DNA from: Apostichopus japonicus
Taxonomy: Eukaryota > Echinodermata > Holothuroidea > Aspidochirotida > Stichopodidae
DNA: 64,000 nt
Assembly: GCF_037975245.1 (NCBI RefSeq)
Contig: NC_092572.1
Location: 8,306,001 to 8,370,000 of the forward strand
Reading direction: 5' to 3'
In this document: one piece after another, positions 44,501 through 47,029 of the stretch
Numbering within the stretch: position 1 is the stretch's first letter
Layout: each line of letters begins with the position of its first letter
Notes under the pieces: generated by a model
What the model was told of the DNA's origin: nothing
Database searches by the model: none
Seen by the model: the letters and a program-made list of their open reading frames with translations, nothing else
Translations under genes and position numbers: made by a program

Positions 44501-47029
44501 AATGTAGCATCCAGAGACGGGAAGTTTGATATCAATCTCCACAGGTAGACCTACGGGCAGGTTTAATTAATTTGTCGTTCATTTATTGAAGATGACGATC
44601 TTTTTCCTTAAACACTGTACTAGTGGAGGGGTTTACTTTTATCAAAACGGTGCAAAAGTTATGCAATTATATCAATTTGTTTTGTGGAATTTTATGCAGT
44701 TACTGTTAACTGCCCAATCTGCACAAAAAGGAAATTAAGGGGGAACAGCTTACGCACCCGTCGCATCCCCCTTCCCTTCCCACGCACACCCTGCGTACGG
44801 GCGTACAAGATCATAGCCTATGTATATTTTTCGCACCACTATTTTATGTTTATTCAATTATTTAGGCTAATCAGTATGAAAATGTCATCTGAAAAGTAAT
44901 TAATATTGAAACAAAGAATAACTAAACAGGAAACACGTGTTAGATTTTTTCGGAATCTCTACTTCTTCAATACACGAAGTGGCATACATTATCTGAACAG
45001 GTCAAAAAGCAGTTCGACTGTGGCCCTATCTATTTGCATTAATGCTTTGAAAATTATATGTTTGGCTATTGCAAGTAGACTATATGTTATAACTGTATGT
45101 TTTTCTTATTGTAACAAACCGGGCCAAAACCGGACAAATTAACCTCAAGATACGTGATTTCTTTGATTCGGAAACAACTGATATTTACGTACATTGTCAT
45201 ATTTATATATCCTTACCGGTTTCGAAGCTCTGGACATGCAATCAGGGTCCATAGCCAAGGCGTTCGGGTGTCCGCATATAAAGCGGGAGGCCCGGGTTTG
45301 AATCCCGGTGGAAGCAGGAGGTTTTCTCACTGTTCTGGATTTTCCAACTCACTACAATTTCAATTATATATATATACATAACTATATATCTCTCTATATA
45401 TATATGCATATATATATATATAACTATATATCTCACTATATTTATACATCAATATATATATATATATATATATATATATATATAATATATATATATATAT
45501 ATATAGCGTAAGAATATGATCTCGTATCTGGAGCTGATTCATGCCTCCTCCAGCTGTTCAAATATTGTTTAAGATCTCCTTTAGTCTTAGTCTGCTTTAC
45601 TGTTACATTTCATAAAAGTTGTTTTAGGTAAATTACATTGTAACTTTTTTTTAAATGTCGTGAAATACGGTACTATTTGGCTTTGTCATTTTCAACCGGT
45701 GACAATTAATATAAGATTATCATTGACGAAAGTTGTAGTCAATTGAGATGCGATACTTACAGTTTTGAAATCAATGTGAGTGCACTTCTTGTAACGATAC
45801 ATTATATTGGTGATCAAATTAAAATAGTTACGTTTTAATTTGAAATAACTTAGTAGAATTGATAACAATATTTAATTTTAACAGGACACTTATGAAAGAT
45901 GAATATTGATGTCATTCCTTTTCACTTTTCTCTGTTCCTTTGATACCTACTGATTTGTGACTGGAATAGACCAATCGATGTACTGGATTAGTGATGATGA
46001 GGTAACTTGGTCTCTAGCAGTGGAAGCATGCCGCAATTTATACAACAATGGTCATCTCGTGCACATTGACAACGAAGAGGAGAATAATGAAGTAGCGGCC
46101 TTTCGAGAGCAAATCTTAGGCGGGAATAAGTGGATCTGGATAGGCATCCATGACTCGGTAAAAGAAGGTAACAAACAAAACACAAATATTAAAACAGCCA
46201 TTGTCTTTGGTGGCTAATGCCCGGATCGTGATCAGAAATATGCATAATATTACTGAAACTACCTTCGAATATGATGAAAGTAGTCACAACGCCATCCTTA
46301 ATTTATTTTCACTAAACTAGAAGTCACAATCAACATCTCTTTACTCAAAACAACAAAAAAATACAAAATACAAAACGATCTTATTAGGTACCAGTGTCTA
46401 TTTAATGTATTAAGTTGTCGATATGTTAATTATTTGAATTTAAAATTGATAGGTCCTGATAATGAATTGTGAAATCTAATGTGAAAATGATCGGCTTTGT
46501 TAACTCATCTAAGATGAAATACTGGCGGATTGGATTGCTGATTTTAATTGGGTAGCCCTACTGGGTTTAGTCATTTAGTATTATTTCAATTAGCTTTCTT
46601 GCGAACAAATGGAGGGACAATAGGGATAGGTGTGGGTTGGTAAGCTTTCTGAGGGTTAAAAAACAACTGGTTAACTTGAACATGAATATGAGATAGGTTT
46701 AGAAAATATTCAGTTAGCTAAATTAGTTGACAATACTGGTGATATTTAGTGTATCAACAATTGATGTACGTTACTTTCCGCTAATACATTGAAAAGCATT
46801 GGACAAGTTGATTTCGTAATTGGTATTGTACTTTTATTTTCAAGGAGTTTGGACATATGAGGACGGTAGCAGACTCGCGTATGTCAATTGGGGTTACGGC
46901 GAACCAGATAGTGCAAACGGACGCGAAGACGAAGACTGCGTGGCGATGAGAAAGGGTGGTGATTATATCGACGCGAATTGTGAATGGAAGTTACATTTTT
47001 GTTGTGAATATTACGTTGTTATTGAATAA
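14517..47029 (+). CDS. Secreted C-type lectin gene 2, complete by splice model
   Basis: Exons 14517-14556, 14852-14902, 16343-16495, 32752-32853, 42986-43084, 45970-46167 and 46845-47029 total 828 nt, exactly 276 codons with the stop. All introns are phase 1 with AG/GT borders. Order: hydrophobic signal peptide [18 protein letters not shown], a linker with two cysteines (exon 3), an Asn/Thr-rich stalk with NMT and NST glycosylation sequons (exon 4), a Thr-rich stalk (exon 6) and a CTLD. Stalk exon 5, present in gene 3, is lost, but symmetric phases keep the frame. The exon 3-4 link spans 16.3 kb and includes an opposite-strand gene, so it is inferred from gene 3, where the same intron is 1.9 kb. 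A transposon sits 23 nt after the exon 4 donor. Confidence 0.65.
14852..14902 (+). CDS. Gene 2 exon 2
   Basis: 51 nt between TTCATATTTAG and GTGAGT, phase 1 both sides, reading [16 protein letters not shown]. Short hydrophilic segment at the mature N-terminus. The copy B counterpart at 51506-51556 keeps borders and frame. Confidence 0.65.
16343..16495 (+). CDS. Gene 2 exon 3: linker with cysteines
   Basis: 153 nt between CCTAATTTTAG and GTAAGT, phase 1 both sides. It reads [16 protein letters not shown] and then [15 protein letters not shown], with two cysteines. The counterpart at 52989-53141 has five or so differences and stays open. No recognised domain. Confidence 0.7.
17161..17316 (+). 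mobile_element. tRNA-derived SINE, copy 2
   Basis: Head with A-box-like TATTGGTTAGGGTG and B-box-like GGTTCGAATGA; tail TTTTCCAACTCACTGCGATTT then TA-rich sequence. Confidence 0.7.
17529..17601 (+). mobile_element. tRNA-derived SINE, copy 3 (3' truncated)
   Basis: Stops at CCGCATATAAAG, before the B-box. It is preceded by CAGTGGAATTACGACCTT, also seen before copies 4 and 6, so the element or a larger host repeat extends further 5' than the tRNA part. Confidence 0.65.
17640..18050 (+). repeat. Degraded fourth copy of an array block
   Basis: Resembles 1339-1860, 16570-17130, 53200-53668 and 56622-57150 (phrases GAGATCTGCCGAACGAG, TTGCTTAATTTAAAAGG), but much more diverged: an older duplication. 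Confidence 0.6.
18062..18217 (+). pseudogene. C-terminal remnant of a Penelope-like retroelement protein
   Basis: 51 codons: [20 protein letters not shown], then NKDLGPLN and a stop. A basic run followed by WI and GLN is the usual tail after the GIY-YIG endonuclease of Penelope-like elements. The upstream part is missing. The hammerhead-like core at 18367 lies 150 nt downstream. Confidence 0.45.
18367..18393 (+). ncRNA. Hammerhead-ribozyme-like core (degenerate)
   Basis: CTGACGA, a partly paired 16-nt arm (18374-18389) and GAAA match the conserved CUGANGA...GAAA core. Stem II has two mismatches. Penelope-like elements are known to carry such motifs, and one remnant lies just upstream. Not expected to be active. 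Confidence 0.3.
18419..18549. repeat. (TA)n microsatellite
   Basis: Follows the Penelope-like 3' remnant. Confidence 0.9.
19112..20237. mobile_element. hAT-type non-autonomous element with 8-bp duplication
   Basis: Perfect 8-bp direct repeats TTCTTGAT at 19104-19111 and 20238-20245 flank ends TAGAGTACGACCGA and (reverse complement of the other end) TAGTGTTCGACCGA. Subterminal regions are full of ATAATCGG/CCGATTAT and GGGCCGATGCC motifs in both orientations (19150-19200 and 20130-20230). No coding sequence. 8-bp duplications and (C/T)AGTG-like ends fit hAT; the TIRs are decayed, so it is old. Confidence 0.75.
20246..23250. other. Long region without recognised genes
   Basis: Ordinary AT-rich sequence with GT-rich runs near 20560-20710. 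No exon with matching borders and frame was recognised, though terminal exons of the minus-strand gene could be here. Confidence 0.4.
23257..23303. repeat. 47-bp near-perfect palindrome
   Basis: Arms of 23 bp (GAGTGCGACAGTCAGAA and its complement at the core) around a single T at 23280, with one mismatch. An RNA from either strand would fold into a tight hairpin. No mobile-element context was identified. Confidence 0.85.
23897..23944. repeat. 20-bp hairpin in a diverged AT-rich repeat cluster
   Basis: AATTGTTCACTTCATTCCAA and its inverted copy (one mismatch) around an 8-nt loop. It lies in 23735-23960, where phrases like TGCTCA, CAATTGAAAAATTG and TTCTGCAAA recur. Confidence 0.7.
24371..24748. 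mobile_element. Short hAT MITE (378 bp)
   Basis: 8-bp duplications CTGATTAG at 24363-24370 and 24749-24756. Ends CAGTGGCGTAGGAAGT and (reverse complement) CAAGGGCATAGGAACC. Interior is G-rich (GGGGGGGCTG) near the left end and C-rich near the right, plus two copies of a CCTxxGATGCAATTTGGTGC motif. CAGTGGCGTAGGAA ends are typical of hAT MITEs. Confidence 0.85.
25104..25199 (-). CDS. Unknown minus-strand gene, exon 5
   Basis: 96 nt between TTTGTTTCAG and GTAAGTATG; reads [20 protein letters not shown] then [10 protein letters not shown]. If the donor is not used, the frame stops eight codons later. Confidence 0.55.
25104..31975 (-). CDS. Unknown gene, opposite strand, five linked exons (C-terminus not found)
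   Basis: Exons on the - strand in transcription order: about 31975-31858, 29207-29172, 28609-28529, 26742-26662 and 25199-25104. All have AG/GT borders and introns in phase 1, and one reading frame runs through all five. The start may be the ATG at 31891 (A at -3, good context, [10 protein letters not shown]) or the in-frame ATG at 31975. Middle exons are acidic then basic, with RKKRARGES and RRKRARGES nuclear-localisation-like runs. The fifth exon reads [20 protein letters not shown] and on, an amphipathic segment with a Trp and two Cys. I do not recognise the family with confidence. The gene lies inside the enlarged intron 3 of lectin gene 2. No terminal exon could be identified. Confidence 0.55.
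26662..26742 (-). CDS. Unknown minus-strand gene, exon 4 (duplicate of exon 3)
   Basis: 81 nt, same borders and length as exon 3; reads [20 protein letters not shown] then TNKSPV. Flanking intron bases (GTAAGTATGAC; AAATTTCTTGCTGTGTCCAG-like acceptor side) are also shared, so the exon was duplicated with its splice sites. Confidence 0.6.
28529..28609 (-). CDS. Unknown minus-strand gene, exon 3
   Basis: 81 nt between GTGTCCAG and GTAAGT; reads [20 protein letters not shown] then TNKSPV. Paralogue of exon 4. Confidence 0.6.
29172..29207 (-). CDS. Unknown minus-strand gene, exon 2 (36-nt microexon)
   Basis: Between TTTTACAG and GTAAGAT on the - strand; reads [11 protein letters not shown]. Confidence 0.55.
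29220..31850. other. Intron 1 of the minus-strand gene
   Basis: No exon recognised. 31260-31800 is rich in TAGGCCTA/TAGGCTA oligomers. A 15-bp palindrome AGGGCGA-T-TCGCCCT lies at 30406-30420. Confidence 0.4.
31858..31975 (-). CDS. Unknown minus-strand gene, exon 1
   Basis: CpG-richer than its surroundings. The frame is open from at least 32059. The donor GTAATA after GGAAGCGTAG is preferred because it leaves phase 1, matching exon 2; an alternative GTAGGT donor 4 nt earlier would break the frame. Confidence 0.45.
32051..32058. promoter_or_regulatory. CRE-like palindrome TGACGTCA
   Basis: Full 8-bp CREB/ATF consensus 76-160 nt upstream of the two candidate ATGs of the minus-strand gene, at the edge of a CpG-richer stretch (about 31860-32060). 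Candidate core promoter element. Confidence 0.4.
32532..32732. repeat. (TA)n microsatellite upstream of gene 2 exon 4
   Basis: Ends 19 nt before the exon 4 acceptor; counterpart 54902-54991. Confidence 0.9.
32752..32853 (+). CDS. Gene 2 exon 4: Asn/Thr-rich stalk exon
   Basis: 102 nt after the strong acceptor ACCCTCTTCCCAG, ending at GTAAGTG. It reads [20 protein letters not shown] and then [14 protein letters not shown], with two N-glycosylation sequons and one cysteine. It is a distant paralogue of exons 5 and 6. A 4.9-kb transposon begins 23 nt after the donor, leaving the splice site intact. Confidence 0.7.
32877..33057 (+). repeat. Left terminal inverted repeat of the transposon
   Basis: About 181 bp, imperfect match to the reverse complement of 37620-37809. 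Best-conserved stretch surrounds GGTCCCCAGAACACCATACT. Contains CCAAGATGGCCGCC, close to a YY1 site. Confidence 0.9.
33877..34212 (-). pseudogene. Transposon protein, C-terminal segment with CXC-like Cys cluster
   Basis: Starts [20 protein letters not shown], a motif that follows the nuclease part in related proteins. It ends with [20 protein letters not shown] followed by [13 protein letters not shown]. Nine or more cysteines in CxC/CxxC spacing resemble the Tesmin/TSO1 CXC (CRC) DNA-binding module, which binds zinc and AT-rich DNA. Stop near 33877. It joins the nuclease segment through a one-base frameshift near 34200-34220. Confidence 0.65.
34140..35804 (-). pseudogene. Transposon protein, XPG/FEN-like nuclease segment (554 codons)
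   Basis: In frame with the previous segment across one TGA; its listed first residue is a GTG valine. Numbering from that residue: LDG at 268-270, VFDG at 306-309 followed by LRR at 322-324, KDDAD at 377-381, GDDTD at 401-405 and LGCD at 461-464. This order and spacing resembles XPG-N (VFDG), XPG-I (acidic cluster, then EDxD) and the LGxD helix region of flap endonucleases, which use such aspartates to bind two metal ions. The sequence ends in a different frame from the expected C-terminus: after RYRKF a one-base indel moves the true continuation to 33877-34212. Confidence 0.7.
35832..36602 (-). pseudogene. Transposon protein, acidic-repeat segment
   Basis: The first codon is GTG, not a real start; it continues the upstream segment after a frameshift. 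Residues 1-110 hold four to five imperfect repeats around a theme like MPTTxVDVxxDRMxExV, rich in Asp and Glu. The second half contains a predicted helical region. It ends at a TGA (35832-35834) after MLPYFAAS; the same frame continues at once as [13 protein letters not shown], so a single base change created the stop. Confidence 0.65.
36587..37543 (-). pseudogene. Transposon protein, N-terminal segment (318 aa, true ATG)
   Basis: Starts with ATG ([11 protein letters not shown]). Notable motifs: VADNVDHN (residues 38-45), [20 protein letters not shown] (149-168), [11 protein letters not shown] (193-203) and [14 protein letters not shown] (221-234). I recognise these as hallmarks of a very common unnamed repeat-encoded family of marine invertebrates. 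The spaced acidic residues (Asp40, Asp195 and later Glu) could be part of an RNase H-like transposase core, but this is inference. A frameshift near 36600 separates it from the next segment. Confidence 0.7.
37620..37809 (-). repeat. Right terminal inverted repeat of the transposon
   Basis: Mirror of the left repeat; contains GGCGGCCATCTTGG at 37643-37656. The coding region of the element starts only about 75 bp inside it, so promoter signals must lie in or next to the TIR. Confidence 0.9.
38203..38553 (+). repeat. Minisatellite, about 90-bp unit x4 (copy B)
   Basis: Same unit number as copy A. Confidence 0.7.
38705..38820. repeat. (TA)n at the exon 5 deletion of copy B
   Basis: Starts exactly where similarity to copies A and C breaks. 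Confidence 0.9.
38941..39093 (+). mobile_element. tRNA-derived SINE, copy 4
   Basis: Best-preserved copy: A-box region TAGCCTAGTGGTTAGGGTG, B-box GTGGTTCGAATCCCGG, body, then TTTTCCAACTCATTACGATT and (TA)n. With its (TA)n neighbours it replaces stalk exon 5 of lectin gene 2. Confidence 0.8.
39094..39138. repeat. (TA)n behind SINE copy 4
   Basis: Joins the SINE to the C-rich minisatellite block. Confidence 0.9.
39163..39815 (+). repeat. C-rich minisatellite (copy B, expanded)
   Basis: About five units, the longest of the three arrays. Confidence 0.75.
41164..41468. repeat. Two (TA)n tracts around a duplicated 90-bp flank
   Basis: Sequence 41085-41165 (GTTTAAAAAGAAACAATG to CCCATAGGATA) is repeated at 41337-41418 between the tracts. 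Confidence 0.9.
42986..43084 (+). CDS. Gene 2 exon 6: Thr-rich stalk exon
   Basis: 99 nt, borders as in gene 1 exon 6, phase 1. Reads [19 protein letters not shown], differing from gene 1 at Ile-to-Met and Thr-to-Ser. The frame is again open through the donor to a stop at 43234-43236. Confidence 0.75.
43085..43236 (+). other. Conserved open frame past exon 6 donor (copy B)
   Basis: Same extension as in copy A, with one Ser-to-Ile change, ending at the same stop position. Confidence 0.4.
43825..43838. promoter_or_regulatory. X-box GTTGTCATGGCAAC (copy B)
   Basis: Matches RFX consensus GTNRCC-RGYAAC closely. Confidence 0.4.
45211..45363 (+). mobile_element. tRNA-derived SINE, copy 5
   Basis: Counterpart of copy 1 in array copy B, with the B-box-like GGGTTTGAATCCCGG retained, followed by (TA)n to 45505. 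Confidence 0.75.
45365..45505. repeat. (TA)n behind SINE copy 5
   Basis: Interrupted by ATCTCTCTATA. Confidence 0.9.
45970..46167 (+). CDS. Gene 2 CTLD exon 7
   Basis: 198 nt, same borders as gene 1, one codon shorter in the variable loop. Reads [20 protein letters not shown] and ends in [13 protein letters not shown]. Compared with gene 1, at least seven codons outside the loop change the amino acid and one is silent. Confidence 0.85.
46845..47029 (+). CDS. Gene 2 CTLD exon 8 (GEPD variant, stop)
   Basis: Reads [36 protein letters not shown] and FCCEY, then one extra Glu before stop. The EPN of gene 1 is EPD here. The third Cys of the CCC cluster is Phe. Sixteen codons differ from gene 1 by amino acid and one silently. 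Confidence 0.85.

Follow-up and report, generated by a model that had tools for sequence, protein, structure and literature searches.

We analysed a 64,000-nucleotide stretch of the genome of the holothuroid Apostichopus japonicus (NCBI RefSeq assembly GCF_037975245.1, contig NC_092572.1, positions 8,306,001 to 8,370,000 of the forward strand; hereafter the window), a locus best explained as a tandem array in which animal genes combine Thr-rich stalk exons with a C-terminal C-type lectin-like domain (CTLD) split over two phase-1 exons, here called exons 7 and 8. In exon 8 of this array, replacement changes between gene copies exceed silent ones, and their density is approximately 2 to 2.6 times that of changes in the neighbouring non-coding DNA; exchange of sequence between the copies is also real. 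The best explanation, and in our judgment a probable one, would be diversifying selection on exon 8 together with reshuffling of the domain halves through the intron that separates them. The features on which the comparison of copies A, B and C of the window rests are as follows.

8937..9137, plus strand: exon 7 of copy A, first half of the CTLD, phase 1 at both ends (open reading frame, ag/gt splice sites)
9138..9868, plus strand: intra-CTLD intron of copy A (gt...ag), the neutral reference, bearing the recombination breakpoint
9869..10050, plus strand: exon 8 of copy A, second half of the CTLD, with EPN motif and stop codon TAA
45970..46167, plus strand: exon 7 of copy B (exon comparison, splice sites)
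46168..46844, plus strand: intra-CTLD intron of copy B (splice sites, intron alignment)
46845..47029, plus strand: exon 8 of copy B, with EPD motif and a C terminus one residue longer (Pfam Lectin_C, 2.6e-07)
63438..63635, plus strand: exon 7 of copy C (splice sites, Pfam match); its exon 8 would fall outside the window

Gene copies and their sampling

The joined exons 7 and 8 of copy A match PF00059 (Lectin_C) with 59.6 bits against a cut-off of 22.6, and the single-exon open reading frames of B exon 8 (31.8 bits) and C exon 7 (30.3 bits) match it as well; relatives of the domain with solved structures include those of the mannose receptor and mannose-binding protein (PDB 1hup, 5xtw and others). 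Across the genome (671.6 Mb in 35 contigs searched), there are at least 14 matches to exon 8, all on one contig and in two arrays: the home array of approximately 140 kb, and a second array approximately 3.3-3.5 Mb distant. We read six home-array copies of exon 8 (G1, G2, G3, G4, A and B) and seven of exon 7 (the same copies and C), so that all comparisons are between paralogues within one genome. Copy G4, located approximately 55 kb upstream of B on the same contig, has an exon 8 identical to that of B and an intron differing at 1 of 677 sites, which points to recent duplication or conversion; as a near-duplicate of B it was excluded from codon models and trees. For the second array, the codon models omitted L031, which duplicates L030, and matches L007 and L008 were used in no test.

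In the home array, 7 of 7 copies of exon 7 and 6 of 6 copies of exon 8 have an open reading frame, and splice sites are retained. Exon length differences between these copies are multiples of three (gaps in the codon alignments being so by construction), and none of the 13 distinct intron gap runs is.

Replacement changes in exon 8 of the home array

An earlier note on this DNA counted 16 replacement codons and one silent codon (GGA/GGC) between exon 8 of copies A and B, and our recount over 59 aligned codons agrees; Nei-Gojobori path averaging gives 19 replacement and 2 silent differences. The stop codon TAA of A is read as GAA (Glu) in B, making B one residue longer. The framework residues that the note described as fixed (WTYEDGS, YVNW, GEP, DC, NCEW and CEYYVVI) are indeed identical between A and B but vary over the six home-array copies, with G2 having NC in place of DC as well as KCEW, and G1 having NCEIW. 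Its description of the introns as nearly identical was overstated: between A and B, 38 of 673 aligned intron sites differ in addition to insertions and deletions, and non-coding DNA with simple repeats masked differs at 220 of 5040 sites (4.4%), compared with 22 of 182 sites (12.1%) in exon 8 and 16 of 198 (8.1%) in exon 7.

The same note took the codon count, set against the introns, as a strong signature of diversifying selection or of exon-focused sequence exchange. If mutations follow the spectrum seen in the non-coding flanks, approximately 78% of changed codons are expected to be replacements under neutrality, and the 16:1 ratio, given 17 changed codons, has P=0.083 in neutral simulation; the ratio alone is thus not significant, and the dN/dS of this pair was rejected as sufficient evidence because it contains too few silent sites. 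The evidence lies instead in the excess of exon-8 change over non-coding DNA. The amount of replacement between A and B was reached in 0 of 20000 simulations at the overall non-coding rate and had P=0.00015 at the local rate; for exons 7 and 8 together, 34.2 replacement differences were observed against 11.8 expected (13.9 at the higher local rate), with silent differences at 3.8 both observed and expected. Among 177-column sliding windows of masked A-B non-coding DNA, none had the 21 differences found in exon 8, the maximum being 18, and exon 8 (21 of 177) also exceeded the last 260 intron columns plus the first 150 downstream columns (25 of 400, P=0.029). The exon changes between A and B are richer in transversions than those in non-coding DNA (12 transitions and 26 transversions versus 121 and 99, P=0.008).

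Codon models (GY-type, F1x4) applied to the five distinct copies gave a ratio of replacement to silent rate (omega) of 4.2 for exon 8 (P=0.020 versus 1), and M2a was favored over M1a (P=0.007), with one third of sites at omega 7. Three alternative topologies gave similar results (omega 4.1-4.8, P 0.010-0.027; M2a P 0.0001-0.003), and the proportion of replacement differences (pN) exceeded that of silent differences (pS) in 14 of 14 differing home-array exon-8 pairs, which are non-independent. Since 1-kb flanks were partly misaligned by insertions (for example, G2 upstream at 0.27), the intron and short blocks were taken as the neutral reference. Counted by parsimony on the tree for exon 8, there were 25 steps over 112 sites at codon positions 1+2 versus 19 over 225 in the 3′ intron (P=0.0009), and these positions also exceeded pooled non-coding sites (P=0.004). 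For the single pair G3-A, exon 8 differed at 5 of 177 sites versus 2 of 407 in the 3′ intron and downstream sites (P=0.029). Three hand-chosen, non-overlapping pairs (G1-B 9:1, G3-A 4:0 and, from the second array, L030-L033 10:0) sum to 23 replacement and 1 silent codon (P=0.02 versus 78%). The replacement rate in home-array exon 8 stands above both the silent and the neutral rate, but not significantly so when downstream sites serve as the reference (P=0.14).

Recombination between copies

The genealogy of the intra-CTLD intron, judged from informative sites, switches between columns 440 and 505 of the 741-column alignment. On the 3′ side of this breakpoint, 11 of 11 informative binary sites fit the tree ((G1,B),G2,(G3,A)), and in exon 8 the same tree accommodates 9 of 12. 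Exon 8 and the 3′ intron are best on that tree (34 and 19 steps, versus 44 and 30 on the exon-7 tree), whereas exon 7 is best on ((G1,G3),G2,(A,B)) with 37 steps versus 49 on the exon-8 tree. With neighbouring segments having conflicting genealogies and the breakpoint lying inside the intron, the two domain halves have recombined between copies. A second case is found in the second array, where L034 differs from L033 and L030 by only approximately 2-3% over 1.2 kb upstream, jumps in divergence within exon 8, and remains diverged downstream; its exon-8 change includes silent as well as replacement codons. The choice offered in the earlier note, diversifying selection or exon-focused exchange, is thus not an either/or, given that recombination between copies also occurred and that selection is supported for exon 8.

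The chief rival explanation holds exon-focused exchange to be the main cause, with short tracts from other or unsampled paralogues replacing pieces of exon 8 and little selection on amino acids needed. Exon-8 states are shared mosaically among copies, 3 of the 12 informative binary exon-8 sites disagree with the tree that the remaining 9 support, and the intron breakpoint, the L034 exchange beginning within exon 8, and the excess of adjacent double changes in exons are all in line with such a process; between L030 and L033, implied silent steps (3.3 of 29 sites) are also denser than the differences in the flanks (approximately 2%). An old donor, however, would import whole silent codons, as seen in L034 with 6-7 silent and 17-18 replacement codons versus L030, L031 and L033, whereas silent codons number only one between A and B, none between G3 and A, and none between L030 and L033. 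The A-B exon-8 pS of 0.062 is moreover near the intron divergence of 0.056. We consider exchange as the main cause unlikely, although it is the most credible of the rivals.

Exon 7, the stalk exon and the second array

For exon 7, M2a was favored over M1a (P=0.00025, with approximately 12% of sites at omega 10; P <=0.0013 on three other topologies). Codon positions 1+2 changed at 35 of 128 sites versus 31 of 293 upstream (P=3e-5) and, with five copies, at 28 of 128 versus 42 of 361 in the 5′ intron (P=0.008), which itself is slightly better on another tree (39 steps). Simulation for exon 7 of B and C gave P=0.092 or 0.018, depending on the neutral rate used.

A Thr-rich stalk exon served as an internal control, with these predicted copies in the window:

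6040..6138, plus strand: Thr-rich stalk exon of copy A (ag/gt, phase 1 at both ends by reading)
42986..43084, plus strand: Thr-rich stalk exon of copy B (stalk exon alignment)
60265..60363, plus strand: Thr-rich stalk exon of copy C (stalk exon alignment)

All 21 pairs of this exon show only 0-4 differences per 93 sites (3 of 93 for A-B), and the replacement excess is not common to it.

In the second array, L030 and L033 differ by ten replacement codons and no silent codon, all within codons 13-46, with flanks differing at 27 of 1211 sites upstream and 1 of 158 downstream (exon versus flanks P=8.5e-6); L029 and L033 differ by eight replacement codons and no silent codon. Path averaging places pS (0.116) above pN (0.087) for L030-L033 because its multi-hit codons imply silent steps, a result that counts among those weighed below. 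What recurs in this pair is accordingly the restriction of change to the exon and to replacement codons; dN does not exceed dS.

Evidence against selection and the remaining alternatives

Several results weigh against selection as the source of the exon-8 excess. Only five distinct copies stand behind the codon models, and recombination and multi-nucleotide changes can inflate such tests; adjacent double differences are in fact more common in exons (9 of 38) than in non-coding DNA (16 of 215). When the first 142 downstream sites are the reference (21 of 142 changed), the excess at codon positions 1+2 is not significant, and the pairs A-B, G3-A, G1-B and G1-G2 are each non-significant against downstream sequence alone. 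Compared with 3′ intron plus downstream sites, G1-B (12 of 177 versus 13 of 394) reaches P=0.076 and G1-G2 P=0.21; by segment, G1-B has P=0.003 against the intron alone (3 of 251) and P=1.0 against downstream alone (10 of 143). Of the windows in the A-C non-coding alignment, which is shorter, 5.7% have 21 or more differences, with a maximum of 22.

Beyond exon 8 of the home array, the averaged models give no significant excess. Exon 7 over six copies has omega 1.44 (P=0.36), and pN was below pS in 7 of 21 exon-7 pairs, including 5 of the 6 pairs with copy C. The five distinct copies of the second array have omega 0.57, which is not significant, and M2a versus M1a at P=0.275; its young clade of three has omega 1.22, also not significant, and only 1 of the array's 14 differing pairs had pN above pS. 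The comparison proposed in the earlier note, dN/dS over array copies against intron divergence, supports diversifying selection for exon 8 of the home array, where the 3′ intron is slower. For the whole family, both arrays and both CTLD exons, such selection is no more than a possibility: the codon-model signal is mixed, exon 7 showing it in the site models and the second array in neither model.

Chance, or the picking of one extreme region among many, possibly helped by multi-nucleotide mutation, would account for the 16:1 ratio, the downstream comparison, the second-array codon models and the weak local contrasts of single pairs. The site models are nevertheless significant for both exons 7 and 8, exon 8 is more divergent than every masked A-B non-coding window, and pN exceeds pS in every differing home-array exon-8 pair, non-independent as these are, so we regard chance as improbable. 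Relaxed constraint or pseudogenisation following duplication, which the loss of canonical calcium-site residues in several copies (at ligand positions we presume, as given below) might suggest, is more improbable still, since it would bring the replacement rate to the neutral rate and not above it, and since frames remain open in all home-array copies with exon length differences in multiples of three.

Position of the changes and the calcium site

By alignment to human mannose-binding protein (1hup), the A-B changes at codons 16, 17, 21, 23, 26 and 29 of exon 8 lie between the conserved NW and DC; the others are at codons 1, 9 and 11, 32-33, 43 (directly after the WND position) and 48-51. The proposal of the earlier note that they mark the ligand-binding face fits many of the exon-8 sites in this alignment, but exon 7 varies too, so that diversification is not restricted to the exon-8 ligand loops.

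Within the home array, copy A keeps the EPN motif, B and G4 have EPD instead, and G2 has a shortened form; immediately before DC, A carries Q where B carries E, and the asparagine position of WND is I in 6 of 6 readable copies of exon 8. Six copies of the second array have EPN (2), EPS (2), and otherwise EPD or QPS, with ND kept in 4 of 6. The site-2 calcium ligands, which we take to be E, N, E, N and D as in mannose-binding protein A, are by the 1hup alignment incomplete in both A (E,N,Q,I,D) and B (E,D,E,I,D), neither of which has the set for calcium-dependent sugar binding. L029 of the second array appears to keep all five.

Proposed mechanism and significance

Under diversifying selection with reshuffling, paralogues would be favored whose loops near the EPN motif make new contacts with ligand, and exon 7 and exon 8 halves would be reassorted by gene conversion or unequal crossing-over by way of the intron that splits the domain. 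The same exchange may spread successful halves, of which B and G4 with their identical exon 8 could be an example. The genes probably encode a recognition lectin, secreted or displayed on the cell surface, that may act in immunity, gamete recognition or self recognition.

A more speculative extension, which we think rather doubtful, is a germ-line combinatorial lectin system in which exon-7 and exon-8 halves diversify independently and are shuffled among the tandem genes at the intron, which acts as the recombination joint, and the calcium-site motif (EPN, EPD, EPS, QPS or shortened) has become a variable contact surface. If so, an ancestral sugar lectin would have been turned into a general variable-recognition module. 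Should selection with reshuffling be confirmed in more individuals, this C-type lectin array would join the lectins in which diversity has come from positive selection as well as from recombination within the binding domain, and would offer a natural variant set for mapping the loop residues that set ligand choice.

Other features of the locus

Two further stalk-type exons are predicted in the window, with boundaries taken from the matches:

909..1023, plus strand: stalk-type exon in the unit of copy A (open reading frame; blastn 89.6% to the stalk exon)
56190..56304, plus strand: stalk-type exon in the unit of copy C (open reading frame; blastn 90.4% to the stalk exon)

Stalk-type matches overall occur at 909-1023, 6037-6150, 32831-32865, 42983-43096, 55063-55119, 56190-56304 and 60262-60375; their number seems to differ between gene units, and stalk length may therefore vary too. 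Segments 1-3450 and 55282-58658 are near-identical (96.9%), indicating that the duplication units reach well past the CTLD exons. A hydrophobic open reading frame at window position 3078, present in five units, was considered as a signal-peptide exon and rejected, as it had no support as an exon. Among upstream open reading frames, 0 of 10 in one set exceeded the Pfam cut-off, and in another set of 10 only the two CTLD frames matched.

A repeat family occupies several places in the units (5147-5565, 6539-6939, 43503-43921, 60779-61177, 13537-13882 and 50536-50940), and three of its open reading frames (5139-5372, 43459-43728 and 60765-61094) were all below the Pfam cut-off. Between A and B, the minus strand of 34143-37564 holds three long open reading frames (563, 268 and 325 amino acids) that matched nothing in Pfam at 0.001 and may represent a transposable element. 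Short open reading frames at 53760-54190, also with no Pfam match at 0.001, presumably resemble Penelope-like retroelement fragments (reverse transcriptase and GIY-YIG-like, on opposite strands). No relatives were confirmed in viral contigs.

Comparison with known systems

Our search of the open-licence literature found no paper linking a C-type lectin to gene conversion or mosaic terms, although the array may still have been described. Among relatives with solved structures, the mannose-binding protein and mannose receptor CTLDs (1hup, 5xtw) share with this array the CTLD sequence, the position of the EPN motif and the conserved cysteines, and differ by the isoleucine at the WND asparagine and by the altered EPN motif of B, G4 and G2. 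Conger eel congerins, galectins whose binding specificity is said to have diversified between duplicates by accelerated evolution (PMC3269628), have a different fold, and that account describes two congerins and no array.

The combination of selection and reshuffling resembles that of oyster sperm bindin and of snake-venom lectins, and we assign the array to neither. According to a review of oyster sperm bindin, F-lectin repeats combine positively selected sites in the binding pocket with recombination in a mid-domain intron (PMC5712786), a likeness in both respects; those repeats have an F-type fold and lie inside single-copy genes with an established gamete function, whereas here the domains are C-type, in separate tandem genes with a putative recognition role. 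In the habu genome, as reported, clustered C-type lectin-like venom genes show accelerated replacement evolution following duplication (PMC6062510), again as in this array, and short exon segments of venom proteins are described as radically altered under the name ASSET (PMC2711939). Those are venom proteins, whereas the present genes have Thr-rich stalk exons. The array has probably changed through selection for diversity together with swapping between copies, as other lectins and snake venoms are already known to have done.

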